36,343 nucleotides of DNA from a virus. Location: positions 1-36,343 of the IMG/VR virus record IMGVR_UViG_3300032116_000647. One strand, 5' to 3'. The translations under genes and the position numbers were made by a program. The notes under the pieces were generated by a model. The model ran no database searches. It saw only the letters and a program-made list of their open reading frames with translations, and was not told where the DNA came from. Shown piece by piece: positions 5,963-29,423 of the stretch (position 1 is the stretch's first letter; every line of letters starts with the position of its first letter).

Positions 5963-6091
5963 ATGGGCCTCGGCCCGAGTGTCGTGGAAGTGCTGGTCGA
6001 GCTGACCGCGGTGGTCACCAGGAGCGCGGCGGCGGTGCTCGCGGTGCTGGAGAAGATCGAGGCGAACACGCGGGGCAAGAAGGACAAATGA
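5963..6091 (+). CDS. Small helical protein, 42 aa
   Basis: Starts at ATG 5963, four bases after the small terminase stop, and overlaps the NeuB-like gene by ATGA. The body (VVEVLVELTAVVTRSAAAVL) is hydrophobic enough for an amphipathic or weak membrane helix; the tail (TRGKKDK) is basic. Function unknown. Its overlap suggests it serves translational coupling of the sugar synthase gene. Confidence 0.55.
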   Translation: MGLGPSVVEVLVELTAVVTRSAAAVLAVLEKIEANTRGKKDK

Positions 6092-7146
6092 CGAGACTGT
6101 TCGAGGCAAAGCCGTACATCGTGGCCGAGGTCGGCAGCAATTGGGCGAGCCGCGAGGACGCGGTGGCCAGCATCGGCGCGGCCAAGGCGGCGGGCGCGGA
6201 TTGCGTGAAGTTCCAGGCGTTCGATTGGGAATCGCTCTACGGACCCAACGAAGAAAAGCGGCGGCTAGAAGAGATCGCGGATTTGCCTGGCTGTCCGACG
6301 CGTCCGTTACGCCTGCCCCTAGCCTGGCTCCCAGCCCTCAAGGAAAAGGCGCACGCCTGCGGCATCGACTTCGCGTGCACCGCGTTCAGCCCGGAGCTGG
6401 TCGCCGCGGTAGACCCGTTCGTCCCCTGGCACAAGGTCGCGAGTAGCGATGCGACGTGGCCGCAGCTGCTAGAGGCGGTGGCGGCAACCGGCAAACCCAT
6501 CGTTCTGAGCGTCGGCGCGAAGAGCAGAGGCGACATTGCTGCAACGCTTCAAACACTGGGCGGCCCGGCTAAGGCGCGTACCGTGCTCATGTACTGCGTG
6601 TCGGCTTACCCGGCTCGCACAATCGACCTACGAGTTATGGCAGAACTCAACGTCTACGGCCTCCGCGTCGGATTCTCCGACCATTCAACTGACATCGTTG
6701 GTCACCCTGTGGCGGCAGCTCGACAAGGAGCCGTCGTCATCGAAAAGCACTTCACGGCATTCCCGGAGTTAGACACGCCGGATCGGCCGCACTCGTTGAC
6801 CGCCGATGAGTTCCAGACCATGGTCGAGAACATCCGCGGCACGCGTCGGCATGCGATCGGTCCGACCCCGGAAGAGCGCGACATGCTCCTGAAGTATAAC
6901 CGCCGCCTCCTTGCCACCAGGGACATCGCGGCGGGCGATGTCTTCACCTATGGGCATAACTTCGGCGCGTATCGCTCGCTCGTCGAAGACACGCGCGGTT
7001 TCTCGCCGTTCATGTGGCGGCACGTCGAGGGCGGGATTGCGCTGGCGCCGATCGAACGCGGCGAGGCGATCGGCCCCGGTGACTTCTCGCAGGGCAATGC
7101 GTGCGGCAAGACACCGCGGCATCTGTGGCCGGAGGAATACCGATGA
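6088..7146 (+). CDS. NeuB/PseI/SpsE-family nonulosonic acid synthase
   Basis: A 352-aa protein matching sialic/pseudaminic/legionaminic acid synthases, which condense phosphoenolpyruvate with a 6-carbon amino sugar. Seen: AEVGSNW (Glu14), KFQ (41-43), the metal-ligand motifs GFSDHS (His199) and EKHF (His221), all in a TIM-barrel order, then a C-terminal SAF/antifreeze-like domain from about residue 271 (RRLLATRDIAAGDVFTYG) to about 335. Length and domain order are normal, so it is probably active. Which nonulosonate it makes cannot be told. It is placed between the terminase subunit genes and coupled on both sides by ATGA-type overlaps. The other pathway genes are at 24761-29423 and a Maf-like transferase is at 13610. 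Confidence 0.9.
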   Translation: MTRLFEAKPYIVAEVGSNWASREDAVASIGAAKAAGADCVKFQAFDWESLYGPNEEKRRLEEIADLPGCPTRPLRLPLAWLPALKEKAHACGIDFACTAFSPELVAAVDPFVPWHKVASSDATWPQLLEAVAATGKPIVLSVGAKSRGDIAATLQTLGGPAKARTVLMYCVSAYPARTIDLRVMAELNVYGLRVGFSDHSTDIVGHPVAAARQGAVVIEKHFTAFPELDTPDRPHSLTADEFQTMVENIRGTRRHAIGPTPEERDMLLKYNRRLLATRDIAAGDVFTYGHNFGAYRSLVEDTRGFSPFMWRHVEGGIALAPIERGEAIGPGDFSQGNACGKTPRHLWPEEYR

Positions 7147-7298
7147 CCACCCAACTCACCAACATCGACCACGAGCTCACCGGCCTCCGCGCGAAACTCC
7201 GCTGGGATCACATTGCCGAGTTCACGCGGGAAGCCATCAAGGCGCGGATTGCGGAGCTGGAAGCGAAGCGTAAGCAGGTGATGGAGCAAGGCGCCTGA
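7143..7298 (+). CDS. Small coiled-coil protein, 51 aa
   Basis: Starts at ATG 7143 overlapping the NeuB-like stop. The sequence is helical with heptad-like spacing (HELTGLRAKLRWDHIAEF and KARIAELEAKRKQVMEQ). Its last bases supply a GGAG (7283-7286) spaced 8 bp from the proposed CTG start of the large terminase at 7295, so it may couple the two. Function unknown. Confidence 0.6.
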   Translation: MTTQLTNIDHELTGLRAKLRWDHIAEFTREAIKARIAELEAKRKQVMEQGA

Positions 7299-8611
7299 TC
7301 TTCAAGCCGCACAGTGAGAAGCAAGAGCGCGCGGTCTTCAGCGACCGCCGCATCACGCTTTGCGGCGCAGGCATCCAGTGGGGCAAGTCGCGTGTCGGCG
7401 CGGTGCGCATGAAGATAGCCCTGCACACGCACACGGCAGCCGATGACACCTTCATCATTGCGGCGCCTACGTACAAGATCATGGCGCAGTCGACCCTCCC
7501 AGCCTTCAAGGCCATAATGGCCGACTACTGGGAAGGCAACTTCAACGCGGGCGCCATGGAGTTCCGCATGCCGGGCGGCGGCACGCTGTACTTCCGCACC
7601 GGCACCGACCCCGACAGCGTCGTCGGCATGACGAACGTGCGCCACGTCTGGGGCGACGAGGCCGGCAAGTTCTCGCTGTACTTCTGGGAAAACCTGCAGG
7701 CGCGTGCATCCTTCAAAGAAGCGCCGATCACGCTGACGACCTCGCCCTACTCTCTCAACTGGATCTACAAGGAAATCATTCGCCCGCTGAAGCGGAAGCC
7801 CGACTCGCTGCCCGACGTGCTCTACGTCAAGGCCCGCAGCGACGAGAACCCGTACTTCCCGCGCGCCGAGTACGAGCGCAAGCGCTCGACCATGGACCCG
7901 CGCCGCTTCCAAATGATGTACGGCGGCGAGTTCGACAAGATGGAGGGCCTCGTCTACCAGTGCTTCGACGAGGTCGAGAACGTGGTCGAGCCGTTCGCCC
8001 TGCCGAGCGGTACGCGCGTCGTCGCGGGCGTCGACTGGGGCTACAGCCATCCCTTCGTCATCGTCGTGCGCGCGATCACGCCGGACGGCCACCACTTCCA
8101 AGTCGCCGAGTTCTACAAGACGCAGCTGACGATCGACCGGAAGATCGAGGCGGCGAAGCGCTTGCAAGCCGTCTGGAACATCGAGCGGTTTTACTGCGAC
8201 CCGGCGAACCCGGACGACATTCGCTCATTCAACGAGGCGAAGCTGCCCGCCGAGGGCGCGAACAACTCGCTGCAGGGCATCGAGAAGCACTACGAGCTGA
8301 TCAAGACGCGGCGCTACAAGATGTTCCGCGGGGCGAACCCGCACACGGAAGACGAGTACGAGGCGTATCACTGGCCGGAAGACGATGCCGACATCAACCC
8401 GGATAAGGACGTGAAGGAACCGACGCCCGTCGACCAGGACAACCACGCGATGGACGCAAACCGCTACGCCACGGTCATGACATGGCAGGGCAGCAAGCGC
8501 CACATTGCCCGCGTGCCCGCAGCAGAAGAGCAACGGCAAGAGACGCAGCATGCGCGCATAGAACGGCTCAAGCGCCCGCTGCGCGTGAGCGGCAGCACGG
8601 AGAACTGGTAG
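7295..8611 (+). CDS. terL: Large terminase subunit (ATPase plus nuclease)
   Basis: The DNA-packaging motor. With the frame opened upstream of the first GTG (7403), residues 1-32 supply a Q-motif-like PHSEKQERA and the Walker A GAGIQWGKS. Walker B is VWGDEA. The nuclease half has the RNase H-fold VAGVDWGYSHP and a late VDQDNHAMDA. Starting at 7403 would remove Walker A, so that start is wrong. No ATG, GTG or TTG exists between the in-frame stop at 7271 and Walker A; CTG 7295 overlaps the previous stop and has GGAG 8 bp upstream. From CTG the protein is 438 aa, normal for the family. A frameshift from the preceding gene is an alternative. Confidence 0.85.
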   Translation: MIFKPHSEKQERAVFSDRRITLCGAGIQWGKSRVGAVRMKIALHTHTAADDTFIIAAPTYKIMAQSTLPAFKAIMADYWEGNFNAGAMEFRMPGGGTLYFRTGTDPDSVVGMTNVRHVWGDEAGKFSLYFWENLQARASFKEAPITLTTSPYSLNWIYKEIIRPLKRKPDSLPDVLYVKARSDENPYFPRAEYERKRSTMDPRRFQMMYGGEFDKMEGLVYQCFDEVENVVEPFALPSGTRVVAGVDWGYSHPFVIVVRAITPDGHHFQVAEFYKTQLTIDRKIEAAKRLQAVWNIERFYCDPANPDDIRSFNEAKLPAEGANNSLQGIEKHYELIKTRRYKMFRGANPHTEDEYEAYHWPEDDADINPDKDVKEPTPVDQDNHAMDANRYATVMTWQGSKRHIARVPAAEEQRQETQHARIERLKRPLRVSGSTENW

Positions 8612-8953
8612 ATGCCCCCAATTTACGATTACGAGTGCCAGACCGGCCACCGCTTCGAGGTCATCAAGCCGATGTCCCAGTCGCAGACGAGCGAGGCATG
8701 CCGCGAGTGCGGCGCGCTCGGTCGCAAGCTGCCGACGCGCTTTGCGTTCAGCGGCGCCGGCGACTGGAACAAGATCGAGATGAACCACGGCCTAGGCGTG
8801 GCATGCACTCCCAAGCAAGCCGAGAAGATCGCGAAAAACCGCGGGCTCGTGCCCGTAGGCAACGAGTCGGCCGAGTCGATGCACAAGCATTTCGATGCGG
8901 TGCGCGAGGAGCGCCGTGAACAGCGGTACAATGACGCTGCCAACCTGAAGTAA
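8612..8953 (+). CDS. FmdB-like zinc-ribbon protein
   Basis: A 113-aa protein that starts directly after the large terminase stop. The N-terminus resembles FmdB-type zinc ribbons: PIYDYECQTGHRFEVI, then ACRECGALGRK, giving Cys/His ligands (C9, H13 and the CREC pair). The C-terminal half is helical and charged. FmdB-like proteins are poorly characterised; those in phage packaging operons have no known role. Possibly a small terminase accessory or regulator. Confidence 0.65.
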   Translation: MPPIYDYECQTGHRFEVIKPMSQSQTSEACRECGALGRKLPTRFAFSGAGDWNKIEMNHGLGVACTPKQAEKIAKNRGLVPVGNESAESMHKHFDAVREERREQRYNDAANLK

Positions 8954-8963
8954 GGAGCCCATC

Positions 8964-10829
8964 GTGGCCGAAGCGTCGACCATGCTCGCGGAGCACCAAG
9001 CCCCCGAGAAGGAACCCGGTAAGAGCGCCGAGCAGTACAACCCCAGCCCGGAGGAGCGCAAGCTCATCCAGTTGGTCGACGACGTGCTCGGCAAGAACAA
9101 GAAGCACCGGCGGACCTACGACCACAACTGGCTCGAAGACTACCGGATGTTCCGCGGGCGCCAGTGGAAGGAGCAGCGGCCGTCCTACCGGCATAGCGAG
9201 GTTCTGAACTACATCTTCCGCAGCATCCAGTCGACCGTGCCCATCCAGGTCGACGCGCGACCCCGCTTCGAGTACCTGCCGCAGGAGCCGGGAGACGCCG
9301 AGGTCGCCGAGATCATCAACGAGGTAGCGGAAGCCGACTGGGTCCGCCACAACTGGGGCGAGCAGCTCCTCGAGGTCGTCTACGACTCGAACATCTACGG
9401 CACGGGCCTCAGCGAGATGGAGGGCGAGCCGAACCGGATCAACTACGAATCTCGCGACCCGGTCTACTGCTTCCCGGCGCCCGAGGCGCGCGACACCAAC
9501 CGCGGGTGTCCCACCTTCGTCTACGCGGAACCCAAGGACCTTGGCTGGATCAAGCGGAAGCACCCGGACAAGGCGAAGTTCCTCAAGGCCGATGTCGCCC
9601 AGCTGATCACGAGCGAGCGCTCGCAGAATGACGTGCGTTTCCGCTCGCCGGCCGATCGCAACCAGGTCATGGAAGGGTCTACCCCTACCGACCCGGCCAA
9701 CAAGGACCTAGCCCTCTACAAGGTCCTGTACCTGACGCCCGAGTACTGCGCCGAGGACTTCGACGAGGAAGAGCGTCCGGTCATCGACGAGGCGACCGGC
9801 GAGCCTCGTGTACGGGAAGACGGCAGCCGCGAGGTCGAATACGTCCAGAAGGCCAAGTACCCGAACGGTCGCCGTATCATCACGTGCGCGGGCGTGCTGC
9901 TAGACGACGGGCCGATTCCCTACGATGACGGAGAGATCCCGTTCGACCGCTACGTGAACTACCTGCTCCCGCGCGAATTCTGGGGCATGAGCGAGGTCGA
10001 GCAGCTCAAGGGCCCGCAGCGGATGATCAACAAGATCTATTCCTTCGCGCTCGACGTGCTGACCCTGATGGGCAACCCCATTTGGATGGTGCCGAGCTCG
10101 AGCGGCGTCGACCCGGACAGCCTGACGAACCGACCGGGCCTCAATGTCGAGTACGACGGGGAAAACTCGCCGCAAAGGGTCGAGGGGGTTTCCCTGCAGC
10201 CCTTCGTCCTCCAGATGTTCGACAAGCTTGGCGAGGTTTTCGACAGCATCAGCGGTAGCCAGGACGTTACTCGGGGCGTCCAGCCGACCGGCGTCACGGC
10301 CGCCTCCGCCATCTCCAGCCTGCAGGAAGCGGCACACACCCGCATCCGCCAGAAGGCGCGAAACCTCGACTTCTACCTGCAGGGCGTCGGGCAGAAATAC
10401 CTGTCGCGGCTCTTCCAGTTCATGTCGGCGCCGCAAGTCTACCGGTTGACCGGCAAGGACGGTGCCGCGCGCTACTTCCGCATGCAGGTCGAGCCGACTG
10501 AGGGACAGAACGGCGTGCCCGGCAAAAAGGTGCGCGTTACCCCGTACACCGACGAGGGCAAAGAAGACGTTACCGGCATGCGGGAATACGAGATCCGCGG
10601 GAAGTTCGACGTGCGCGTCGTGACCGGCTCGAGCCTGCCGTTCGCGAAGGCCGAGAAGGAAGGGAAACTCCTCAAGTTCTTCGAGCTCGGCATCATCGAC
10701 GAAGAAGAAGTGCTCAAAGGCTCGGACTATCCCAATTGGGAAGCCGTGCTGCAGCGCATCGAGGAGAAGAAGGCCGCCCAGGCGCAAGCCGAGGCAGCCG
10801 CCGCGCCACCGCCTAAAGGTGCCGCCTGA
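8964..10829 (+). CDS. Portal protein (head-to-tail connector)
   Basis: A 621-aa protein, start GTG 8964 with AAGGAG about 8 bp upstream. Position directly after the large terminase, size, and sequence (an N-terminal DHNWLEDYRMFRGRQW, a central QRMINKIYSFALDVLTLMGN, and a GVTAASAISSLQEAAHTRIR helix) fit podovirus-type portals of about 600-700 aa. It would form the dodecameric ring through which DNA enters and leaves. The C-terminus is Glu/Ala/Pro-rich. The family call is from context and overall pattern rather than a single motif. Confidence 0.75.
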   Translation: MAEASTMLAEHQAPEKEPGKSAEQYNPSPEERKLIQLVDDVLGKNKKHRRTYDHNWLEDYRMFRGRQWKEQRPSYRHSEVLNYIFRSIQSTVPIQVDARPRFEYLPQEPGDAEVAEIINEVAEADWVRHNWGEQLLEVVYDSNIYGTGLSEMEGEPNRINYESRDPVYCFPAPEARDTNRGCPTFVYAEPKDLGWIKRKHPDKAKFLKADVAQLITSERSQNDVRFRSPADRNQVMEGSTPTDPANKDLALYKVLYLTPEYCAEDFDEEERPVIDEATGEPRVREDGSREVEYVQKAKYPNGRRIITCAGVLLDDGPIPYDDGEIPFDRYVNYLLPREFWGMSEVEQLKGPQRMINKIYSFALDVLTLMGNPIWMVPSSSGVDPDSLTNRPGLNVEYDGENSPQRVEGVSLQPFVLQMFDKLGEVFDSISGSQDVTRGVQPTGVTAASAISSLQEAAHTRIRQKARNLDFYLQGVGQKYLSRLFQFMSAPQVYRLTGKDGAARYFRMQVEPTEGQNGVPGKKVRVTPYTDEGKEDVTGMREYEIRGKFDVRVVTGSSLPFAKAEKEGKLLKFFELGIIDEEEVLKGSDYPNWEAVLQRIEEKKAAQAQAEAAAAPPPKGAA

Positions 10830-10841
10830 GTTTCCGAAAAC

Positions 10842-10952
10842 TGGTGAACTCTTGAGCAGCGTCGTATATTACTAGCAGACGCACTTCAAAACTTATCCCG
10901 CGCCTAACTTATCCGGCCTCAACTTATTAGCGTCTGACCCCGGATAAAAACC
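10842..10952 (+). promoter_or_regulatory. Intergenic region with triple ACTTAT element (copy A)
   Basis: In the 123-bp gap after the portal gene, ACTTAT occurs three times, at 10891, 10907 and 10922, spaced 16 and 15 bp. The same triplet with the same spacing is at 24391/24407/24422. A TATATT at 10865-10870 could be a -10 box, with only a poor -35. TTATCCGG (10909-10916) and CCGGATAA (10940-10947) form a perfect 8-bp inverted repeat that ends 5 bp before the GTG at 10953 and could fold in the mRNA leader. Probably a regulatory site; what binds is unknown. Confidence 0.45.
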
Positions 10953-11255
10953 GTGCGCGAAGGTATGCCGCCTGCTCAAGGCGCGGCGCCTGGCAATGCT
11001 CCTGCTCCCGCCGAAGGCGGCGAGCAAGGTGGTGCCGGCGGCCCGCAGGAAATCATCGTCGACATCGACAAGCGCCTTGGCGCGCTCGCCGAAGCTGCCA
11101 GCAACCCTGCAGCGAAGGCCGTGATCGAAGAAATCCGCGACTTCTTCCAGGCCAAGATGGAAGAGCTGCTGAGCGGCGGCGGCCCCGAGCCTGCCGGCGG
11201 CCCGACGACGCCCGAGCAAGGCGGCGCGGCAAACGTGCGTCCGGCGGGGCCGTGA
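10953..11255 (+). CDS. Hypothetical protein of the capsid-assembly region, 100 aa
   Basis: Start GTG 10953 or ATG 10965, preceded by no strong ribosome site. Gly/Pro/Ala-rich ends flank a helical centre (IIVDIDKRLGALAEAASNP and VIEEIRDFFQAKMEELL). It ends three bases before the scaffold-like gene. Such low-complexity proteins between portal and scaffold may be scaffold accessory proteins, but I recognise no family. Confidence 0.6.
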   Translation: MREGMPPAQGAAPGNAPAPAEGGEQGGAGGPQEIIVDIDKRLGALAEAASNPAAKAVIEEIRDFFQAKMEELLSGGGPEPAGGPTTPEQGGAANVRPAGP

Positions 11256-11258
11256 CGC

Positions 11259-12149
11259 ATGGACGATATCGATACCCAAGAGCTACTCGATAGCATCGAG
11301 AAGCCGGCGGAAGATCGGCCGATGGGCGGGGAAACCGCGCCCGAGCCGGAAACCCCCGCTGCTCCTGAGCCGCCGGCTTGGAAGGGCGACGAGTGGGCCT
11401 TCGACTTCAACGGCAAGCGCGTAGTGCCGACGAGCGTCGACCAGCTCCGCGTCTGGGCGAGCCAGGGGCACAACTACTCCCAGCGCGCGGCCGAGCTGAA
11501 CAAGCGCGAAGCGTCCTTCAAGGATCTCGAGGGCAAGTACAAGCCCTACGCCGAGGTCGACGACTACGCGACGAAGAATCCGGAATGGTGGCAGCACGTC
11601 CAGGAGTCCTACGCCAAGCGCGGCCAGGAAGTACCCGACCAGGTCAACCAGCTGCCGCCCGAGCTCCAGGCAGCGCTCAAGCCGTTCCAGGAGAAGCTGT
11701 CGCAAGTCGACGCCTTCCTGCAGCAACAGCAGCAAGCGCGCGAAGCCGAGCAGCAGGAAGCACTACTCAAAGAGCAGACGCGCCAAGACGAGGCGCTTTC
11801 AACGGCCATTGAGGAGATCCGGGCGAAACACCCGAACATCGATCTCAATGCTAGGGACGAGTCTGGCGAGACCCTCGAATACCGCGTGCTGAAGCATGCC
11901 GCCGAGAACGGCATCGGCACCTTCCGCGCGGCCTTTCGAGATTATCTCCACGACCAGCTCGTCGAGTCGGAGAAGGCGAACGCTGAGCGCGCGAAGCTGA
12001 AGGCAGGCGAGCAGGAAAAGCGCCAGGGACTATTGGGCCGCAGCCCAACCCCCAAGAAGGTGCCGGACGACGCGCCAGCCAACGTCCGCGGGAAGTCCTA
12101 CGAGGACATCACCCGCGACATCCATCGCGAACTCGGCATCACCGCATAA
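11259..12149 (+). CDS. Scaffolding-like protein
   Basis: A 296-aa acidic, Gln/Glu-rich protein placed just before the major capsid gene, where scaffolds are encoded. Residues 1-45 are acidic and Pro-rich; the middle (VDAFLQQQQQAREAEQQEAL) is strongly helical or coiled-coil; the C-terminal tail is basic with a predicted short helix (SYEDITRDIHRELGI), the typical coat-binding end of phage scaffolds. No protease motif is visible. The likely role is to guide procapsid assembly and then leave. Confidence 0.7.
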   Translation: MDDIDTQELLDSIEKPAEDRPMGGETAPEPETPAAPEPPAWKGDEWAFDFNGKRVVPTSVDQLRVWASQGHNYSQRAAELNKREASFKDLEGKYKPYAEVDDYATKNPEWWQHVQESYAKRGQEVPDQVNQLPPELQAALKPFQEKLSQVDAFLQQQQQAREAEQQEALLKEQTRQDEALSTAIEEIRAKHPNIDLNARDESGETLEYRVLKHAAENGIGTFRAAFRDYLHDQLVESEKANAERAKLKAGEQEKRQGLLGRSPTPKKVPDDAPANVRGKSYEDITRDIHRELGITA

Positions 12150-12164
12150 AACAAGGAGCCAGCC

Positions 12165-13094
12165 ATGGCTTTGACCTACGATCAGCTTTCCGCGATCACG
12201 AAGAAGCACTACGTCCCGAAGCTCGTCGACAACATCTTCGACAGCGACCCCCTTCTCCAGCGTCTGAAGAAGAAGGACCGCTACCAGAAGATCAGCGGCG
12301 GTACCTCCGTCATGTTCCCGCTGAGCTACGCGCTGACCACGTCGGCCGGCTGGTACTCGGGTGCCGAGACGCTGCAGACGACCGACAACAACCAGATCAC
12401 GGCCGCTGAGTTCGACTGGAAGCAGCTGTACGTGAATATCTCGATCGAGCGCAGCGAAGAACTCAAGAACATGGGCGACGCGCAGGTGATCGACCTCGTG
12501 AAGGCGAAGACCAAGATCGCCGAAGACACGCTCACCGACTACCTCGGCGACGGCATCTACTCGGCGGGCACCAACGCCAAGTCGATCCTGGGCACCCGCG
12601 CCCTGCTCGTCGGCTCGGGCAGCACGGTCGGCGGCATCTCCACCACGGATAACTCCTGGTGGCGCGCGCAGGTCGACTCGACGACCACGACGCTCGGCCT
12701 CCCGGCGATGCAGACCATGTACAACCGTGCGACGATCAACAACAAGTCGCCGACGGTCGGCATGGCGACGCGCACGATCTTCAACGCCTACTGGGCGCTG
12801 CTGCAGCCGCAACAGCGGTTCACCGACAGCGACACGGCCAAGGGCGGCTTCCAGAACCTCATGTTCAACGGCATGCCGATCATCTCCGGCTCCAAGGTGT
12901 CCAGCTCGCAACCGCTCCTCTTCCTCAACGAAGAGACGCTCGCGCTCAAGGTCCACAAGGACGAAGACATGCGCTTCGAGCCGTTCCAGAAGCCGGTCAA
13001 TCAGAACGTCAAGACCGCCAAAATCTACTGGATGGGCGCGATGGGCGTCGACAACCTGCGCATGAACGCGGTGTTCACCGCGCTCACCGCCTAA
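12165..13094 (+). CDS. Major capsid protein (HK97-type fold inferred)
   Basis: A 309-aa protein with a strong ribosome site (AAGGAG) before ATG 12165. It follows the scaffold and precedes a decoration-like protein, the standard place of the coat gene. The sequence starts MALTYDQLSAITKKHYVPKL and has a central stretch rich in Thr/Ser (VDSTTTTLGLPAMQTMYN), then GFQNLMFNGMPIISG and KIYWMGAMGVDNLRMN near the C-terminus, the pattern of HK97-fold coat proteins of about 300 aa found in podoviruses. A surface-exposed candidate substrate for the Maf-like transferase two genes downstream. Confidence 0.8.
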   Translation: MALTYDQLSAITKKHYVPKLVDNIFDSDPLLQRLKKKDRYQKISGGTSVMFPLSYALTTSAGWYSGAETLQTTDNNQITAAEFDWKQLYVNISIERSEELKNMGDAQVIDLVKAKTKIAEDTLTDYLGDGIYSAGTNAKSILGTRALLVGSGSTVGGISTTDNSWWRAQVDSTTTTLGLPAMQTMYNRATINNKSPTVGMATRTIFNAYWALLQPQQRFTDSDTAKGGFQNLMFNGMPIISGSKVSSSQPLLFLNEETLALKVHKDEDMRFEPFQKPVNQNVKTAKIYWMGAMGVDNLRMNAVFTALTA

Positions 13095-13110
13095 TAGGAG
13101 GCACAACGCC

Positions 13111-13602
13111 ATGGCATACGAAGGAATCGCCCCTATCCGTTTCGACAGTGTCTCCAACGTCACGGCGACACGCGGCCCCAAAGACCCGGAAGTCGGCTCC
13201 CGCTGCACCGATGGCGGCATCGACTACGTGTACGTCTACAACGGTGGCACGGACGCTCAAATCTCGGTCGGTCGCGGCGCCGTGCTGCAAAGCAGCGCGT
13301 CTGGCTACACGGTCACGGTTTCGTCGGTCACCTCGGCCGACTTCGTCATCGGTGTCTGCCGCAACGCGACGCTGACGACCGGCACTTACGGCTGGCTCGT
13401 CGCGAAGGGCATCACCAAGGTTCAGATGAAGGCTGGCGCCAGCGCGACCGTCGCGCAACGTGGCCTCATCGAGATCGCGGCCGATGGTTTCTTCGCACCG
13501 GTCTCTCTGACGACGGCGAACCTCGCGCCGGCTTGCGGTGTCGCACTCGAAGCGATCACCTCGGGCACCAGCGGCTCGGCCTTCGTCTCTTGCTACGGGT
13601 GA
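13111..13602 (+). CDS. Capsid decoration / head-stabilising protein (DUF2190-like)
   Basis: A 163-aa beta-rich protein behind AGGAGG. Repeated Gly/Thr/Val strands (GRGAVLQSSASGYTVTVSS and GVCRNATLTTGTYGWLVAKG) resemble DUF2190-type decoration proteins, which trimerise on the outside of the capsid. It directly follows the coat gene. The Ser/Thr-rich surface strands make it a plausible glycosylation target; that is speculation from the neighbouring DUF115 gene, which starts 7 bp after this stop. Confidence 0.65.
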   Translation: MAYEGIAPIRFDSVSNVTATRGPKDPEVGSRCTDGGIDYVYVYNGGTDAQISVGRGAVLQSSASGYTVTVSSVTSADFVIGVCRNATLTTGTYGWLVAKGITKVQMKAGASATVAQRGLIEIAADGFFAPVSLTTANLAPACGVALEAITSGTSGSAFVSCYG

Positions 13603-13609
13603 AGCAACT

Positions 13610-14626: not shown

Positions 14627-14638
14627 GAGGGCTAGGCG

Positions 14639-14905
14639 ATGGCCTGGACCGTGACCAAGACGCCGACCGTGTTCGGCAACAAGCGCGCAGTGATCATGAA
14701 GTGCGTCGCGGATGCCGCTACGCAGAACATCGAGACGGGCCTCTCGACGATCGAAGCCTTCTCGGTCGGCTACTCGTCGATGGCGTCGGCAGCTCCGAAG
14801 CTGTTTCCGAACTCGGGGCTCGCGGGCACGGCCATCGCCGGAACGCTTGGCGCTACCGGCTTCACGACGGGCGACGAGCTCTACATCACGGTGTACGGCC
14901 GCTAG
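14639..14905 (+). CDS. Small virion-module protein, 88 aa
   Basis: Behind AGGAGG, 12 bp after the Maf-like gene. Beta-rich with Thr/Ser/Gly (VDAATQNI-type strands, SSMASAAPKLFPNSGLAGTA, GFTTGDELYITVYG). No family recognised. Its place between capsid and head-completion genes and its composition suggest a structural or head-fibre protein. Confidence 0.6.
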   Translation: MAWTVTKTPTVFGNKRAVIMKCVADAATQNIETGLSTIEAFSVGYSSMASAAPKLFPNSGLAGTAIAGTLGATGFTTGDELYITVYGR

Positions 14906-14914
14906 GAGTAGCCC

Positions 14915-15259
14915 ATGGGACCGATCCGCGTCTTTGTCGGAACTATAGCGTCCGGCGCCAGCTCGTGTGAAATCGACACCGGTGGCGATGCGTTCACCAA
15001 GGTATTCGTGCAGCTGCCGACCATGTCGACGGCAGTCGTGTTCGATGTCTACGGCTCGCACGACGGCTCGGCTTACGCCCAGGTCTTCGAGCGCGTGAAC
15101 ACGGCGCCCGTTCAGTATCAAAGCCTCATCGTAGCGGCGGGCGTCGGGACGAACGGCGGCATTGCGCCGCTCGCGGTCACCAGTCGCTACGTACAGCTCC
15201 GAGGCTCCGCAGTCGTCTCCGGCGGCGTCGCCGTCAAACTTATCACTTGGAATACCTGA
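14915..15259 (+). CDS. Beta-rich virion-module protein, 114 aa
   Basis: Starts at ATG 14915 behind GGAG. The sequence alternates short hydrophobic strands (KVFVQLPTMSTAVVFDVYGS and SRYVQLRGSAVVSGGVAVKL), suggesting a single beta-sandwich such as a head or tail accessory. Not recognised. The next gene follows 7 bp later. Confidence 0.6.
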   Translation: MGPIRVFVGTIASGASSCEIDTGGDAFTKVFVQLPTMSTAVVFDVYGSHDGSAYAQVFERVNTAPVQYQSLIVAAGVGTNGGIAPLAVTSRYVQLRGSAVVSGGVAVKLITWNT

Positions 15260-15266
15260 GGTACCC

Positions 15267-19972: not shown

Positions 19973-19990
19973 CAACCGGGGAGCATCATC

Positions 19991-21477: not shown

Positions 21478-21480
21478 GTA

Positions 21481-23247: not shown

Positions 23248-23250
23248 CCA

Positions 23251-24336
23251 ATGCCCGCGCCCAGCGTAACCTACACGCTCACCAACGGGACCACGGCTGA
23301 TGCCAGCCAGGTCATGCAGAACTTCAACGACCTGATCAACGGGATGAGCGACGGCACGAAAGACCTGTCGATCAACGCGCTGACCTTGGCCGGGGCACTA
23401 ACGGCCAACGGCCACGTGAACATCGGCAACGCTTCGGCCGATGACTTGATTGTCAACGCATCACTGGCGTCAAACCTCGTGCCAAAGACGACCAATACGT
23501 ACAACCTAGGCTCGGCCGACGTCGGGGTGGCTGGCGTCTACTTCGGCACGGCTGACACCGACACGGCGCGGATCGTCTCGGCGGCCCTTGCGGCCGACCG
23601 CACGTACACGCTGCCCGACGCTGGTGCCGCAGCCGACTTCGTCATGACGGCGGGAGCGACGGCGATCACTGGGCTCAAGACTTTCCAGGGCGGTCTCTCG
23701 TCAGCGGAATACGTCGGCACCGTACCCGAGGTCGGCGGGTCATCCCCATGGCAGCTCACGGTCGCTCACAAGCGCGTTCAGGTCGTTAATGATGGTGGCG
23801 ATGTCAACCTGCCTACAACGAGCGTGAAGGCTGGAGAGTCGTGGACAATCGAGAACCGTTCGTCGTCGGATCTCGACATCAACGGGAGCGACGGCTCGCT
23901 CATCGTGACGATCCGCACAGGTTACGCAGTAGTTGTCGCACTACAGGACACTCCAACGGCAAATTCCCACTGGCGGCTAACGACTGCGGAAGATACCGGA
24001 TCCTTTACTGGCACGCTTACCGGCTGTACGACAAGCCCGACCGGGACCAGCTACTGGTCCCGCTCCGGAAAGGGCGTCACCATTTTCATCCCTGAGATCG
24101 TCGGCACGTCAAACGCGACATCGGCCACGATTACGGGGCTACCTGCCTCGCTGTTCCCGGCGCGTATCCAGTACGTGGCGTCCTACACATTTGATAACGG
24201 CACGGCGACTTGGGAAAAGTGGACGGTGAACACCGCCGGCACGATCACGCTCTTCAAAAGCTTGTCGTCCACCGGCTTCACGGCCAGCGGCACGAAAGGG
24301 ATTAAAGAGGCCACCGTCAGCTTCATGGTGGGCTGA
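23251..24336 (+). CDS. Tail fibre / receptor-binding protein
   Basis: A 361-aa protein with a tail-fibre N-terminus (PSVTYTLTNGTTADASQVMQ, NFNDLINGMSDGTKDLSINA) and repeated fibre strands (GALTANGHVNIGNASADDLI, TNTYNLGSADVGVAGVYFG), then a beta-rich distal part ending in GIKEATVSFMVG. Such N-termini attach to the tail; the C-terminal part likely binds the receptor. There is no pectate-lyase or peptidase motif. It is the last gene before the sugar genes, so its receptor could be a surface glycan; that is speculation. Confidence 0.75.
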   Translation: MPAPSVTYTLTNGTTADASQVMQNFNDLINGMSDGTKDLSINALTLAGALTANGHVNIGNASADDLIVNASLASNLVPKTTNTYNLGSADVGVAGVYFGTADTDTARIVSAALAADRTYTLPDAGAAADFVMTAGATAITGLKTFQGGLSSAEYVGTVPEVGGSSPWQLTVAHKRVQVVNDGGDVNLPTTSVKAGESWTIENRSSSDLDINGSDGSLIVTIRTGYAVVVALQDTPTANSHWRLTTAEDTGSFTGTLTGCTTSPTGTSYWSRSGKGVTIFIPEIVGTSNATSATITGLPASLFPARIQYVASYTFDNGTATWEKWTVNTAGTITLFKSLSSTGFTASGTKGIKEATVSFMVG

Positions 24337-24348
24337 CAGCAAAAGGGC

Positions 24349-24427
24349 TTGCCCAAGAAACGGGCAGATCTTATGCTCGGTATTAGCCAAACTTATCACG
24401 GGTACAATTTATCTCGCTTTCACTTAT
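24349..24427 (+). promoter_or_regulatory. Candidate promoter plus triple ACTTAT element (copy B) before the sugar operon
   Basis: TTGCCC (24349-24354) and TATGCT (24372-24377) are spaced by exactly 17 bp, a reasonable sigma70-type pair. Just downstream, ACTTAT/ATTTAT/ACTTAT lie at 24391, 24407 and 24422, the same 16- and 15-bp spacing as copy A at 10891-10927. The repeats would be in the 5' part of the transcript. This would allow the sugar/lysis genes to be expressed apart from the virion operon. Confidence 0.45.
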
Positions 24428-24764
24428 AGCTGCGCTAGCCGCGGCATTCATTGCGTTTTGTGTCGCCTGCTACCTCGGACTGGCGCTCAAAGGAGCCCGC
24501 CGGGCTGGCCGTGAGGCGCTCATTCGGCTCTCGGCCGAGCAGGGGCAGCACGAGGTCAGCAAGCACGCGCTGCGTGACGCGGGAGCCGAACTCGCGACGC
24601 TGCGCGACAAGCTGGCGACGGCGGCGGCCGAGGCTAGCAAGCGCACGCCGAGCATCGAGTGCGCCGAGATGCTACGCGACCTGGCGGCGAACGGCGCGCT
24701 TCTTCACGTCTCGCGCATCGACGCCAACGACGTGTTCATGATGTCACCGAGGACCGCGCGATGA
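24411..24764 (+). CDS. Small membrane-anchored coiled-coil protein without a canonical start codon
   Basis: A clear coding frame ends at TGA 24762-24764, overlapping the SDR start by ATGA. It encodes one hydrophobic N-terminal segment (LIAALAAAFIAFCVACYLGL) followed by basic residues and a charged helix (HALRDAGAELATLRDKLATA). The frame opens after TAG 24384, yet contains no ATG, GTG or TTG before the membrane segment; ATC 24411, ATA 24426 or ATT 24450 are the only near-cognate options, and no good ribosome site is seen. The topology resembles inner-membrane spanin-like proteins. It may start at a rare codon, or be a decayed or misread gene. Confidence 0.45.
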   Translation: MSLSLIAALAAAFIAFCVACYLGLALKGARRAGREALIRLSAEQGQHEVSKHALRDAGAELATLRDKLATAAAEASKRTPSIECAEMLRDLAANGALLHVSRIDANDVFMMSPRTAR

Positions 24765-25660
24765 GCTACGTGGTGATCGGCGGCACCGGCACGCTTGGCA
24801 GCGAGATCATGCGGCAGCTGTTGCAGCGCGATCCCGGCACCAAGATCACCTGCTACAGCCGCGACGAGATGAAGCAGTACCAGGCGCGGGCCGAGTTCCC
24901 GAGCGTGCGCTTTGTGATCGGCGACATCCGCGACCGAGCCGCGGTCAAGAACGTGGTGCGCGGCGCGCATACCGTCTTCCATTTCGCGGCGCTGAAGCAC
25001 ATCGACACCTGCGAGGCGAACCCGGTCGAGGCGATCAAGACGAACCTGCAAGGCTCGCTCAATATCGCCGATGCCGCGGCTGCTGCCCAGGTGCCCTATG
25101 TCGTCTACTCGAACACCGACAAGGCCGTCCTGCCGATCACGACGTATGGCTACACGAAAGCGCTCGCGCAGAACGTGCTGCTGGAGATGAACAAGGGCAC
25201 GCGCACGAAATTCTCGGTGTTCAACTGGGGCAACGTGCTGGCAAGCCGCGGCAGCGTGATCCAGTGTTTCGTGCGCTCGCTGCTCGACAGCGGCCAGGTG
25301 AACATCACCGACTTGCGCATGACGCGCTTCTGGCTGCGCATTGAAGACGCCGCGACGCTGGTGCTCGAACGCTACAAGACCGCGCCGAATGACCGCGCCG
25401 TGATCCCGCCGTGCAAGGGGGCGTATGTCACCGACGTAGCCCAAGCTTGCGCCCGGCTCCTCGGCATCAAGAAGTTCCGTACCAACGTGACGGGCTTGCG
25501 CGGCACCGAGAAGCTGTACGAGGTGCTCGAGAGCACGCACGGCGGCTGCCTCAGGAGCGACACATGCGCGCAGTACACGGCCGACGAGCTCGACTCACTC
25601 TTGCGCGACATAGTCACGAGGCTTGCACAAGAGCACAAGGCAGGGAGGGCATCGGCATGA
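24761..25660 (+). CDS. SDR-family nucleotide-sugar 4,6-dehydratase (PseB/FlaA1/CapD-like)
   Basis: A 299-aa extended SDR enzyme. It has the NAD(P)-binding GGTGTLGSE at residues 8-16, an acidic GDIRD (54-58), FHFAALKHIDTCEANPVEAI (73-92, the PseB/CapD signature), the catalytic SNTDK (117-121) and YGYTK (129-133). In PseB-like enzymes the TDK/YxxxK set converts UDP-GlcNAc to a 4-keto-6-deoxy sugar, the first step of pseudaminic-type sugars. ATG 24761 is chosen because it begins just before the Rossmann motif and overlaps the previous gene. It leads a chain of overlapping sugar genes. The substrate is inferred. Confidence 0.85.
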   Translation: MSYVVIGGTGTLGSEIMRQLLQRDPGTKITCYSRDEMKQYQARAEFPSVRFVIGDIRDRAAVKNVVRGAHTVFHFAALKHIDTCEANPVEAIKTNLQGSLNIADAAAAAQVPYVVYSNTDKAVLPITTYGYTKALAQNVLLEMNKGTRTKFSVFNWGNVLASRGSVIQCFVRSLLDSGQVNITDLRMTRFWLRIEDAATLVLERYKTAPNDRAVIPPCKGAYVTDVAQACARLLGIKKFRTNVTGLRGTEKLYEVLESTHGGCLRSDTCAQYTADELDSLLRDIVTRLAQEHKAGRASA

Positions 25661-26280
25661 TCGTCGGGATTGTCGGGCACCTTGGGAACATGGGCCGCCG
25701 CTACGCGAAAATCTGCGAGTACCTCGGCCATCAAGTCATAGGCCACGACCCGCGGGAAAACCCGCTGGGCGACGTGCGCACGCTATCCTTCACCGCCGAC
25801 GCCATCATCATCGCGAGCCCGACGCCTTACCACGTCGATCACATCCGCGCGTTCAAGGACTACAGCCTGCCGATCCTCTGCGAGAAGCCGGTTACCAAGG
25901 ATCTCGACGCGCTCGAGGAGCTGCTGGCCGACCTCAAGGCAGCGGGCACACGCCTGAAGGTCGTCAACCAGTACGCGGAACTCTCCTTCCCCAAGGACGG
26001 CACCGGCCTGACCTCCTACGACTACTTCAAGAGCGGCGGCGACGGCCTAGCCTGGGATTGCATCAGCCTCGTGACCTTGGCCAACGGCCCGGTCGAGCTG
26101 CGGAACGACTCGCCCGTCTGGAAGGCGCAGATCAACGGGCACCCTCTCGTCGCGAGCGACATGGACGGCGCCTACATCCGCATGGTTGACCGCTGGCTGC
26201 GTGACCCATCGACGACCGACTACGACGCCATCTATCGAGCCCACAAGAAGGTAGCCGACCTTTGCCAACCAAAGTCCTAA
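25657..26280 (+). CDS. Gfo/Idh/MocA-type NAD(P)-dependent sugar oxidoreductase, short form
   Basis: A 207-aa protein starting at ATG 25657, overlapping the SDR stop. N-terminal Rossmann motif GIVGHLGNMGRRY, DAIIIASPTPYHVDH, and the family hallmark LCEKPVTKD. Typical family members have about 320-350 aa; here the C-terminal alpha/beta substrate domain is reduced, so it may be a minimal or specialised enzyme. In surface-sugar operons these proteins oxidise or reduce a sugar intermediate. It overlaps the next gene by 19 bp. Confidence 0.75.
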   Translation: MIVGIVGHLGNMGRRYAKICEYLGHQVIGHDPRENPLGDVRTLSFTADAIIIASPTPYHVDHIRAFKDYSLPILCEKPVTKDLDALEELLADLKAAGTRLKVVNQYAELSFPKDGTGLTSYDYFKSGGDGLAWDCISLVTLANGPVELRNDSPVWKAQINGHPLVASDMDGAYIRMVDRWLRDPSTTDYDAIYRAHKKVADLCQPKS

Positions 26281-26978
26281 TAGCGATACAGGCGCGCAGC
26301 GGGTCTACCCGGCTGCCGCGCAAAGCCTTCGAGCTGATCGGCGAGCGGCGCATGCTAGACCATGTGGTCGACGCTTGCCGCGAGGCCGCGCGCTACCTGA
26401 TGTCGCGGCCGACGCCGAATGCTCCCGAGGTCAGCGTGGCGCTGCTCGTGCCGACCGCTGATCCCATCGCCAAGGAGTTCGCGCGTGGCGTGGGCGTCGT
26501 CGAAGGCCCGGAGCAAGACGTGCTCAGCCGGTACTACGCGGCGCTCGAGCGCTACTCGCCCGACTTCGTCGTGCGCATCACCGGCGATTGCCCGCTAATC
26601 CCCGACTTCCTGATCGCCAAGCACATCACGACAGCGATCAAGGGGCGGTACGACTACGTGTCAAACGTGGACGAAGAGACGCGCACGGCGATCGACGGGC
26701 ACGACTGCGAGGTCATGAGCAGCCGCATGCTTGGCTGGCTGCATGGCGCCGCGGAGACAGCCCCCGACCGCGAGCACGTGACCCTCATGGCTCGTCGCGA
26801 GCCACCCGACTGGGCGCGCATGGGCTGCGTGCTGAACTACCACGACCAAAGCCACGTCAAGCTGAGCGTCGACACGGCAGACGACTTAGCGCGCGTGCGC
26901 GACGAGTACAGTCGGCGCGATCTCAAGCTATTCAAGGCCGAGCGCAAGTTCGGCAGGCAAGCGGTGCACCGCCTATGA
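26262..26978 (+). CDS. SpsF/PseF/NeuA-like CMP-sugar synthetase (cytidylyltransferase)
   Basis: A 238-aa nucleotidyltransferase. The N-terminal AIQARSGSTRLPRKAF is the SpsF/NeuA nucleotide-binding motif, followed by VVEGPEQDVLSRYYAA and VVRITGDCPLIPD with the metal-binding Asp. Such enzymes load a nonulosonic acid with CMP for transfer. The start is TTG 26262 (AGAAGG about 10 bp upstream), overlapping the previous gene by 19 bp. Length and motifs are complete. With the NeuB-like gene it provides the two defining steps of CMP-nonulosonate synthesis; the exact sugar is unknown. Confidence 0.85.
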   Translation: MPTKVLIAIQARSGSTRLPRKAFELIGERRMLDHVVDACREAARYLMSRPTPNAPEVSVALLVPTADPIAKEFARGVGVVEGPEQDVLSRYYAALERYSPDFVVRITGDCPLIPDFLIAKHITTAIKGRYDYVSNVDEETRTAIDGHDCEVMSSRMLGWLHGAAETAPDREHVTLMARREPPDWARMGCVLNYHDQSHVKLSVDTADDLARVRDEYSRRDLKLFKAERKFGRQAVHRL

Positions 26979-28201
26979 GCGACCATTTCGCGCTGCACAG
27001 GCGCGCCCAAGACTGCATCGCACAGGCTGCGCTGACGAACAGCAAGCGTCCGAGCTGCCACGTGCAAGGCGTCTACCCGACGCATGTCGCCCGCGGCCAC
27101 GGCGGCCACCTGTGGGACCACGCCGGCCGCAAGTATCTCGACTTCATCTGCGGGCTGGGCACCAACATCCTCGGCTACGGCGACGCGCGCGTAAACGCCG
27201 CGATCGCCGCGCAGCTCCCGCACGGCGCATCCCTGTCCTTCTCTACCCACCACGAGCTGGAGACGGCGGAGAAGGTCAAGGAGCTAGTGCCGTTCGTCGA
27301 TGCGGTGAAGTTCCTGAAGTCCGGCAGCGAGGCGTGCTCGGCCGCCATCCGCATCGCGCGCGCAGCGACCGGACGACACTACGTGCTGAGCGACGCCTAT
27401 CACGGCTGGCACGACGAGTTCGTCAGCTTGACGCCGCCGGCCTACGGCGTGCCGAACGACGACGACGGCTTTACTCGAGCGATCGAGCCGTTTCACAAGC
27501 TCGACCAGATCGACAGCACGGTCGCGGCCGTGATCGTCGAGCCGGTCGTGACCGACGCGAGCGACGCGCGGCGTGCTTATCTCCAAGAATTGCGGAAAGT
27601 GTGCACAAAGCACGGCACTCTGCTCATTTTCGACGAGGTCATCACCGGGTTCCGATGGCCGCGTTTCACCGTGGCGACCAACTGGTCGATCACGCCGGAC
27701 CTCATCTGCCTCGGCAAGGCGATTGCCAATGGCATGCCGCTGGCTGTCGTCGGCGGCAAGTACGCGGTTATGAATTGTCCCGACGAATACTTCGTTAGTT
27801 CGACCTACGCTGGCGAGACGCTATCCCTGGTCGCCGCCAAGACGACCATGACGCTACTCCAGACCAAGTACGACCTGGCGAACCTGTGGGAGCACGGCGC
27901 GCAGTTCCTCGACGGCTTCAACGCCATCTGGCCGGAAGCCGTGCGCATCGAGGGGTACCCGTCGCGCGGCGCGTTCAAGGGCGACCTGCGCGCTCGAGCC
28001 ATGTTCTTCCAGGAGGCTTGCCTAGCAGGTCTGCTTTTTGGTCCCAGTTTTTTCCTGTCCTTCGCGCACCTCGGCGAGATGCACGGCGTGCTCGACACGT
28101 GCAGAGACATCCTGGGTCGTGTAAAACGCGGCGAAGTAAGGATGAAAGGGGAGCTTCCGAGCAGCCCCTTTGCGGAGCGAGTGAGGGCAAAAAGCGCATG
28201 A
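26975..28201 (+). CDS. Class III PLP-dependent aminotransferase (glutamate-1-semialdehyde aminomutase-like)
   Basis: A 408-aa fold-type I enzyme. PLP-binding SGSEA (116-120), YHGWHDE (142-148), LLIFDEVITGFR (217-228, Asp220), the Schiff-base Lys248 in LGKAIANG, and STYAGETLS (276-284). The closest family is the GSA-aminomutase-like group of class III, members of which occur in surface-sugar clusters beside SpsF and NeuB proteins. It would place the amino group on the keto sugar, in the role of the DegT-type PseC in the classic pathway. Heme synthesis is unlikely in this context. Overlaps neighbours by 4 bp on both sides. Confidence 0.85.
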   Translation: MSDHFALHRRAQDCIAQAALTNSKRPSCHVQGVYPTHVARGHGGHLWDHAGRKYLDFICGLGTNILGYGDARVNAAIAAQLPHGASLSFSTHHELETAEKVKELVPFVDAVKFLKSGSEACSAAIRIARAATGRHYVLSDAYHGWHDEFVSLTPPAYGVPNDDDGFTRAIEPFHKLDQIDSTVAAVIVEPVVTDASDARRAYLQELRKVCTKHGTLLIFDEVITGFRWPRFTVATNWSITPDLICLGKAIANGMPLAVVGGKYAVMNCPDEYFVSSTYAGETLSLVAAKTTMTLLQTKYDLANLWEHGAQFLDGFNAIWPEAVRIEGYPSRGAFKGDLRARAMFFQEACLAGLLFGPSFFLSFAHLGEMHGVLDTCRDILGRVKRGEVRMKGELPSSPFAERVRAKSA

Positions 28202-28674
28202 AACGTTGTTATTTGTGTAAGAAAGACAAGCCGCGAAGCGACTTTCACAAGTGCGCTGGACGCACTGATGGCCTGCAAACGAAGTGCAAACCTTGCCAGA
28301 TCGAGTACCAGCGTCAGCGCCGGAAGACCGCAGAAGGCAAAGCGTACGATAGCAAGCGCCGGGTCATGTACAGCCAGACGGAGCGTGGTCGCGAAGTCAT
28401 GAAAGAGGCAGCGAGACGTTTTCGCTCGCGCCCGGAAGGGGCCGCGAAGAGCAGGACGTGGTGCCAGCGATACGCTAGAGAAAACAGAGAGAAGATCCGC
28501 GCCCACAAGCGGGTGAGCAAAGCGGTTGCCGCAGGCAAGATCCAGCGCTTGCCATGCGAGGTCTGCGGCACAACTCCGACTGATGCCCATCACCACGACT
28601 ATTCCAAGCCGCTTGACGTGCGTTGGCTTTGCAGATTTCACCACGGCGAAGAGCATAGGAAGGCGCGCGCATGA
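28198..28674 (+). CDS. HNH-type zinc-finger endonuclease
   Basis: A 158-aa basic protein. N-terminal zinc motif CYLCKKDKPRSDFHKC, then CKPC; C-terminal HNH-like module CEVCG, DAHHHDYSKPLDVRWLC and RFHHGEEH, a common phage HNH variant (His-Tyr/Asn-His with CxxC ligands). Between them is an Arg/Lys-rich helical linker. Likely a free-standing homing-type or DNA-nicking endonuclease. It overlaps the aminotransferase and GNAT genes by 4 bp each, which splits the sugar operon without breaking translation coupling. Confidence 0.8.
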   Translation: MKRCYLCKKDKPRSDFHKCAGRTDGLQTKCKPCQIEYQRQRRKTAEGKAYDSKRRVMYSQTERGREVMKEAARRFRSRPEGAAKSRTWCQRYARENREKIRAHKRVSKAVAAGKIQRLPCEVCGTTPTDAHHHDYSKPLDVRWLCRFHHGEEHRKARA

Positions 28675-29423
28675 AGATCCCGGTGAGCCTTGAACTTCGC
28701 GCCTTCGACTCGACCGACGCCGTCCGCGTCCGCGAGTGGCGGAACCACTACAGCATCTGGCGGTACTGCCGCCAAAACGATTTGATCTCCGATGTTGCGC
28801 AAACCGCTTGGTATGAGCGACAGTCTAAAGATCCCAGCATCAAAATGTACGGGCTATGGCTGAAGGTGGCGGCGGGGGCCGAGCTAGTCGGCGTGGCCGG
28901 GCTCACGTCCATTGATTGGTTCAATCGTCGGGCCGAGTTCTCGTTGTACCTAAATCCCGAAAAGCACCGACAGGGGCTAGGGAGCAGCGGGCTCAGGATG
29001 CTCCTTGCGCACGCGTTCGACAACCTCGCGCTTGAACAGGTATGGGGCGAGACGCTCGAGGGAAACCCCGCCATGGCGATCTTTCAAGCCATCGGCTTCA
29101 AGCAGGACGGCACCCGGCGCGCCTTCTATTGGAAAGACGGCCGCTTCTGGGACGCCCACCTCATCAGCATCACCCGCGAGGAATGGCATGGACATCGTAC
29201 AAGGGCTGCTACTCCTGATCACGCTGGCGACGCTGGTAACGACGCTGGCGCTTTGGAAGCAGCGGGTGACCCCGCTCGTCGACAAGGTGGCAAGCGAGGC
29301 CGTAGACCACGAGGAGTCGCCGCACTCGTCGCTGGAGCCGACCACGCGGCCGATGCGGGTAGCCGTCCTGGACGACGAGACGGCAGCGAGGCGCGAGAGG
29401 CAGGCCAGGGAGAAGGCGCCTAA
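28671..29423 (+). CDS. GNAT-family N-acetyltransferase (PseH-like), with long out-of-frame 3' overlap
   Basis: Residues 1-173 are a complete GNAT: an N-terminal LRAFDSTDAVRVREWRNHYS, a beta core with EFSLYL, acetyl-CoA-binding HRQGLGSSGLRML, and NPAMAIFQAIGF. This is the pattern of PseH/RimJ-type acetyltransferases acting on amino sugars such as the UDP-4-amino intermediate of pseudaminic synthesis. The frame continues to residue 250, but the last about 77 aa are Ala/Gly/Arg-rich and overlap, in another frame, the membrane-protein gene at 29188. That tail looks like shadow sequence, so the enzyme may simply lack a nearby stop. Overlaps the HNH gene by 4 bp. Confidence 0.75.
   Translation: MKIPVSLELRAFDSTDAVRVREWRNHYSIWRYCRQNDLISDVAQTAWYERQSKDPSIKMYGLWLKVAAGAELVGVAGLTSIDWFNRRAEFSLYLNPEKHRQGLGSSGLRMLLAHAFDNLALEQVWGETLEGNPAMAIFQAIGFKQDGTRRAFYWKDGRFWDAHLISITREEWHGHRTRAATPDHAGDAGNDAGALEAAGDPARRQGGKRGRRPRGVAALVAGADHAADAGSRPGRRDGSEAREAGQGEGA

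Follow-up and report, generated by a model that had tools for sequence, protein, structure and literature searches.

IMG/VR virus record IMGVR_UViG_3300032116_000647, a stretch of 36,343 bases that was analysed whole and is called the window in the following, carries seven genes that would serve the synthesis and attachment of a sugar: a NeuB-family keto-sugar synthase, a DUF115/Maf-like glycosyltransferase, a PseB/CapD-like short-chain dehydrogenase/reductase (SDR), a short Gfo/Idh-type oxidoreductase, an SpsF-type CMP-sugar synthetase, a class III aminotransferase dependent on pyridoxal phosphate (PLP), and a PseH-like GNAT acetyltransferase. These seven genes are the syntenic core of a widespread group of uncultivated small phages. 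They probably constitute one functional system, in which a CMP-activated nonulosonic-type sugar is made and then attached by the Maf-like DUF115 protein to the capsid or its decoration protein. Genomes of 34-40 kb devote seven genes to the sugar and its attachment, and the transferase is kept as faithfully as the capsid gene.

Gene Order and Co-occurrence in the Phage Group

The open reading frames (ORFs) of the window were checked for coordinates and strand and searched with Pfam, NCBIfam, and PHROG profiles; the seven proteins named in a sequence-only reading of the same DNA were all recovered at the positions and on the strand given there (Table 1). That reading had described the synthase and the transferase as embedded among packaging and capsid genes, and so they are: the NeuB gene lies between a TerS-like ORF and the gene of the terminase large subunit (TerL), the DUF115 gene is separated by a single small gene from that of the major capsid protein (MCP) in front of it, and the other five genes form a cassette in the order SDR-Gfo/Idh-SpsF-aminotransferase-GNAT behind a tail-fibre-like gene (g23251). 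TerL, the portal protein, and MCP are neighbours of the kind usual in tailed phages. Relatives in IMG/VR, found by combined pattern and tblastn searches, with 19 further records searched with family profiles, keep NeuB between the TerS-like ORF and TerL and DUF115 one gene behind MCP.

Core counts refer to 17 contigs longer than 33 kb, including the window. Profile searches detected DUF115 in 17/17, and NeuB, confirmed with the Pfam model, in 16/17, as were SpsF, the aminotransferase, and GNAT, an outcome that bears out the co-occurrence expected for relatives from the sequence. Most of these contigs also have SDR and Gfo/Idh; the cassette is cut by the contig end in G029, Gfo/Idh was undetected in G040, and both are absent in G027. 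The order within the cassette is usually kept, and in most long relatives it follows the counterpart of g23251; SDR has been relocated to the vicinity of TerS/NeuB in G003 and G043, and GNAT lies near NeuB in the partial contig G014. Four contigs (G013, G028, G034, G039) have terminal repeats of 123-127 bases, contain all seven genes, and are probably complete circular assemblies.

Wider recruitment counts loci, some from near-identical phages and hence not independent events. A scan with the NeuB profile kept 80 loci; where these included the family MCP with 2.5 kb of sequence behind it, DUF115 was present in 34/34, and NeuB was found in 15/17 DUF115-recruited loci that included TerL and 3.5 kb upstream. 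Around the aminotransferase (80 recruited loci), the fetched stretch contained SpsF in 79 cases, SDR in 67, Gfo/Idh in 65, and NeuB in 38. The pathway proteins and MCP have correlated pairwise identities (r 0.53-0.76, Mantel p 0.001), and so have the pathway proteins among themselves (r 0.87 for NeuB-aminotransferase and likewise for SpsF-aminotransferase). Median pairwise identity over 20 genomes is 0.52 for DUF115 vs 0.54 for MCP, and 0.33-0.47 for the pathway proteins. The ratio of nonsynonymous to synonymous substitution rates (dN/dS), in the pairs tested, is 0.04-0.10 for DUF115, which amounts to strong purifying selection, and 0.07-0.33 for NeuB. The arrangement is more than chance, since the complete set is met again in syntenic order in numerous further contigs. 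The pathway and DUF115 genes have long belonged to the genome and are maintained by selection.

The pathway genes, described early on as dispersed, are indeed so in the window; this proved to be a trait of its branch, since in L228 the synthesis genes form an unbroken run, SDR-NeuB-Gfo/Idh-SpsF-aminotransferase, that ends just ahead of TerL, and DUF115 follows MCP. In several large contigs (L257 and similar) SpsF and the aminotransferase form one fused ORF adjoining Gfo/Idh, SDR, DegT, and NeuB; these clusters look like the bacterial version and support a common pathway. Small phages of a second type (L239, L241, L248) carry NeuB-SDR-aminotransferase-GNAT together with SpsF, formyltransferase-like, and PIG-L deacetylase-like genes, without the family DUF115. 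A larger nonulosonic-type cluster was seen in a 102-kb virus contig (L006:6916-17837), comprising MerR-SDR, DegT, SDR, NeuB, a weak 2-epimerase-like ORF, formyltransferase, SpsF, GNAT, and a class III aminotransferase.

The DUF115/Maf-like Transferase and its Capsid Neighbours

The DUF115 protein shares 50-66% identity with 17 relatives. Fold comparison was needed because a PDB search with the single sequence gave no match and the sequence profile found the Magnetospirillum Maf structure 5mu5 weakly. An AlphaFold2 model built from 18 phage sequences reached a mean pLDDT of 90.7, and its top PDB fold match is 5mu5 (E 2e-9, 307 columns, TM 0.52 on query), which places the phage protein with the central domain of Maf (DUF115/Maf_flag10) by family and by fold. 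The Methanocaldococcus pterin kinase (HPPK) 8sd5, expected in first place for an MptE-type enzyme, ranks second (E 2e-4, ~217 columns), so that the model, compared with both structures as had been proposed from the sequence, is nearer to Maf. The human sialyltransferase ST8SiaIII is also among the fold matches (E 9e-4), and DNA glycosylation by DUF115 received no support from them. MptE-like proteins with related folds are present in other uncultured phages, so the mere occurrence of DUF115 in a phage is no novelty; it is the coupling to the sugar cassette and the capsid locus that stands out.

The small gene that separates MCP from DUF115 is conserved. In Foldseek searches its AlphaFold2 model (pLDDT 80) resembles proteins that decorate or cement the capsid or form the base of head fibres in many phages, the leading matches being HFTV1, the phi29 head-fibre base, Pam3, the TW1 capsid-stabilising protein, BB1, T1, Sf11, and XM1; E-values are modest (best 4e-4). 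It is accordingly termed a predicted capsid decoration protein. The MCP-DUF115 gap has a median of 511 bases over 115 loci. Because of the order MCP - decoration protein - transferase, the most likely acceptor would be an outer capsid protein, that is, the decoration protein or MCP.

Enzymes of the Proposed Sugar Pathway

The phage NeuB belongs to the NeuB/PseI/SpsE family by its NeuB barrel, metal-binding His residues, and conserved motifs; KFQ, HK, SDH, and EKH as well as D232 and R296 are invariant across 15 aligned phage sequences, and the nearest solved structures are the pseudaminic acid (Pse) synthase 8h2c and SpsE 1vli. In the window protein the C-terminal SAF (antifreeze-like) domain scores 19.9 bits vs a cut-off of 21, and the NCBIfam NeuB/PseI equivalog cut-offs are missed (161 vs 400 bits, 146 vs 340 bits). 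Between the otherwise very similar phages L016 (G013) and L029 (G025), the synonymous divergence dS is 0.66 for NeuB vs 0.03 for DUF115, which suggests allele exchange at the NeuB site. DNA methylase genes lie near TerL/NeuB in some relatives (L115:3886-4848, L118:1200-2372, L031:9076-10008); additional ORFs near NeuB in relatives were considered as sugar genes and rejected, as they are DNA methylases, ParB-like, lectin-like, or unknown.

The closest solved structure to the SDR is the UDP-GlcNAc C6-dehydratase 2gn4 (E 2e-48); the catalytic motif TDKA...YGxTK is kept, and NCBIfam PseB TIGR03589 matches with E 5e-62 and 210 bits, below the cut-off of 408. The EKP motif of the short Gfo/Idh protein is invariant in 12 sequences, and its profile retrieves Gfo/Idh structures; the SpsF profile matches the cytidylyltransferase 6oew (E 2e-28) plus KdsB structures; in the aminotransferase the PLP lysine, Lys248 of the GKA motif, is invariant in the alignment. 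The best NCBIfam match of GNAT is PseH TIGR03585 (E 2e-18, 66.8 bits vs a cut-off of 93.1), and no pathway protein reached an NCBIfam equivalog cut-off that would assign it to a specific sugar. The GNAT ORF ends in an Ala/Arg-rich C-terminal tail past the domain (29180-29423), which may overlap the frame of another gene; L033, L038, and L042 have long tails too.

Proposed Mechanism and Alternatives

Gene families, conservation, linkage, and folds were computed, and from these we infer the timing, the order of the reactions, which sugar is made, the donor used, the acceptor, and what the phage gains. The sugar would be made probably late in infection. SDR would dehydrate UDP-N-acetylhexosamine (UDP-HexNAc), the class III aminotransferase and GNAT would aminate and acetylate the sugar, and Gfo/Idh would act in some redox step; NeuB would then condense the hexose with phosphoenolpyruvate, and SpsF would activate the product with CMP. 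Finally, the single-domain DUF115 would link the sugar to Ser/Thr residues in the virion, the likeliest acceptors being the decoration protein encoded immediately upstream and MCP, and the outcome would be a sugar-coated virion. The claim that the phage makes an activated sugar in order to decorate a virion protein, raised already from the sequence, stands as regards the genes for CMP-keto-sugar synthesis, the Maf-like transferase, and their conservation; the virion as target is drawn from gene context. A more specific version is put forward tentatively, with doubt slightly outweighing belief: capsid glycosylation would belong to the core genome of the whole group, the CMP-nonulosonic-type sugar would come from a non-canonical route with the class III aminotransferase and the compact Gfo/Idh but without PseC and PseG, and a one-domain Maf would place it on the decoration protein, giving each virion a sialic-like surface of phage origin.

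Several observations weigh against the proposed mechanism. No DegT (PseC-type) aminotransferase was found in 16 phage records (PF01041, 0/16), no PseG hydrolase in the same number (TIGR03590, 0/16; PF04101, 0/10), and no NeuC/LegG hydrolysing 2-epimerase in ten (PF02350, 0/10). Given these results the route either is incomplete or includes a new step; relative to the canonical enzyme set for Pse or legionaminic acid (Leg), the class III aminotransferase and the short Gfo/Idh protein are extras. The pathway is thus not canonical Pse/Leg, and its product is best called nonulosonic-type. Because the DegT aminotransferase and the PseG/NeuC hydrolase were not found, the pseudaminic/legionaminic type and the mass of about 316 Da in the sequence-only reading are guesses. 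PseC may have been replaced by the class III aminotransferase, or this enzyme may, together with Gfo/Idh, aminate another carbon; the hydrolysis may be supplied by the host or by an unrecognised enzyme. More speculatively, the Gfo/Idh protein itself might carry out the missing hydrolysis by a GH109-like redox mechanism.

Also on the negative side, the NeuB of some relatives (L005, L028) is shortened, without the C-terminal SAF region, and PF01973, called MptE-like in Pfam, includes the archaeal pterin kinase too. Maf enzymes have a three-domain architecture, with an N-terminal Rossmann-like, a central, and a C-terminal helical domain (PMC11339370); the phage protein is the central domain only, 338 aa vs 632 residues in 5mu5. 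G027 keeps DUF115 without NeuB, SpsF, SDR, or GNAT, and its aminotransferase relative (L110:8640-9590) is shortened, with the lysine motif GKAIANG reading GAANACG; it looks as if donor synthesis had been lost secondarily and the transferase kept, which perhaps uses a host CMP-sugar. Moreover, no close isolate or host of the group was found: tblastn with single proteins against 50,697 named phage records gave no match for NeuB, DUF115, and SpsF and remote matches only for the aminotransferase, and the search of GTDB genomes yielded no prophage of the group. As the single GTDB match covered 42 residues in a metagenome-assembled genome of Clostridia, no host was assigned.

An alternative target would be the host surface, the phage-made sugar being placed on host flagellin, capsule, or lipopolysaccharide to block other phages or to alter the lysogen. 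This is unlikely, though not without precedent: Maf is a flagellin enzyme, the prophage-encoded EpaA/EpaB have been proven to convert Pse to 8ePse in the A. baumannii capsule (PMC12053666), phage O-acetyltransferases modify capsule nonulosonic acid (NulO; PMC6586298), and the integrase-like and repressor-like ORFs of the window point to a phage that may be temperate. However, NeuB and DUF115 are fixed inside the packaging/head block in more than 100 loci, unlike optional cargo genes, and epaAB is sporadic among prophages (PMC12053666), in contrast to the near-universal genes here; the scanned ORFs included no recognisable polysaccharide transferase, and a sigma-70-like promoter was not found before the cassette, which is weak evidence. 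Within the virion, the tail fibre or appendage might be decorated instead of the capsid, as the position of the five-gene cassette behind g23251 in most long relatives would have it; we regard this as improbable, because the transferase adjoins MCP and the decoration protein, at the short distance given above, and lies away from the fibre.

Two further readings would separate DUF115 from the sugar genes, and both appear very improbable. If it were a pterin pyrophosphokinase or another nucleotide enzyme, as the Pfam name and the second-ranked fold match would allow, neither the Maf match, better by five orders of magnitude and over more columns, nor the presence of DUF115 in all 34 NeuB-recruited loci with the family MCP would be expected. 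If the cassette and NeuB were separately acquired auxiliary metabolic genes with no functional tie to DUF115, one could point to their distribution over three sites, to G027, and to the moved SDR in G003 and G043; against this stand the near-universal co-occurrence, the correlated identities with MCP and among the pathway proteins, and the contiguity in L228.

Relation to Known Systems

Phage virions are commonly regarded as bare protein, glycosylated mycobacteriophages being an exception. In Che8 and Rita, according to PMC11256854 and PMC12619734, both citing Freeman 2023, phage-encoded glycosyltransferases go together with a glycan on capsid proteins, for which the window offers a parallel at the level of genes; these two papers mention neither a nonulosonic pathway nor a Maf-like enzyme. 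The acceptors of NulO in Maf reactions are Ser/Thr residues of proteins, and one Maf enzyme tolerates varied donors (PMC11339370). With the Maf flagellin systems of Campylobacter, Aeromonas, Clostridium, and Magnetospirillum the phage set shares the PF01973 central domain, with 5mu5 as best fold, and four partner enzymes, namely NeuB, a CMP-synthetase, a dehydratase of PseB type, and a GNAT. A further likeness, proposed for the phage, is that the sugar is transferred in the cytoplasm to Ser/Thr residues of a protein that self-assembles (PMC11339370, PMC4065374). In contrast to these systems, the phage enzyme is a single domain without flanking domains, its gene lies beside a capsid gene and not flagellin, and there is no DegT or PseG.

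EpaA/EpaB of A. baumannii and the phage NulO O-acetyltransferases (PMC12053666, PMC6586298) are likewise phage-encoded nonulosonic acid enzymes, and EpaA has a CTP_transf_3 domain; unlike the window genes, they alter host-made capsule sugar, are sporadic, and have no described NeuB or Maf-like partner. The legionaminic acid pathway sps of B. subtilis provides counterparts in SpsE (NeuB), SpsF, SpsD (acetyltransferase), and SpsM (dehydratase), but also needs SpsC and SpsG, targets the spore crust, and has no Maf (PMC7439481). The unusual combination of Gfo/Idh, SpsF, and class III aminotransferase recurs in the bacterial-type clusters (L257 and similar), which differ by the SpsF-aminotransferase fusion, a longer Gfo/Idh, and the presence of DegT. 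No phage-encoded NeuB-SpsF-Maf system was found in a literature search with most subscription papers and preprints outside its reach, in agreement with the sequence-only reading, which knew of no such arrangement; phage virion glycosylation itself is known, and it is the coupling for which no described equivalent was found. If the proposed capsid glycosylation is true, a common phage group would be marked throughout by a sialic-like coat with negative charge, which would affect adsorption, grazing, and immune recognition; the one-domain Maf-type enzyme would be a possible tool for protein glycosylation, next to a new nonulosonic route.

Other Features of the Window

Table 1. Genes of the sugar system and neighbouring features in the window.
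Feature	Coordinates	Strand	Evidence
NeuB-family keto-sugar synthase	6088..7146	+	PF03102 E 5e-53
Terminase large subunit (TerL)	7403..8611	+	phrog_2 E 2e-40
Portal protein	8964..10829	+	phrog_156 E 6e-49
Major capsid protein (MCP), possible acceptor	12165..13094	+	NF033394 capsid_maj_Podo 254 bits, cut-off 80; phrog_9953 E 9e-61
Capsid decoration (cement)-like protein, possible acceptor	13111..13602	+	AlphaFold2 model + Foldseek
Single-domain DUF115/Maf-like glycosyltransferase, 338 aa	13610..14626	+	PF01973 E 3e-15
Probable tail-fibre/appendage protein g23251, function inferred	23251..24336	+	Recurs upstream of cassette in relatives
PseB/CapD-type UDP-sugar 4,6-dehydratase (SDR)	24761..25660	+	Polysacc_synt_2 PF02719 E 2e-67
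Short Gfo/Idh-type oxidoreductase, 207 aa	25657..26280	+	GFO_IDH_MocA PF01408 E 3e-9
SpsF-type CMP-sugar synthetase	26262..26978	+	CTP_transf_3 PF02348 E 9e-19
Class III PLP aminotransferase	26975..28201	+	Aminotran_3 PF00202 E 2e-47
HNH-like endonuclease ORF within cassette	28195..28674	+	phrog_2340 endonuclease E 7e-30
PseH-like GNAT acetyltransferase	28671..29423	+	PF13302 E 1e-16

The tail-fibre-like g23251 had no match in the profile searches, and a promoter/terminator scan was uninformative. The HNH-type endonuclease ORF between the aminotransferase and GNAT, overlooked in the sequence-only reading, is probably outside the sugar pathway; a relative of it was also found after TerL in L012. 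The window further contains an integrase-like ORF (3454-4632), a repressor-like helix-turn-helix ORF (31441-31839), and a tRNA-Trp (36136-36208), on account of which its phage may be temperate.

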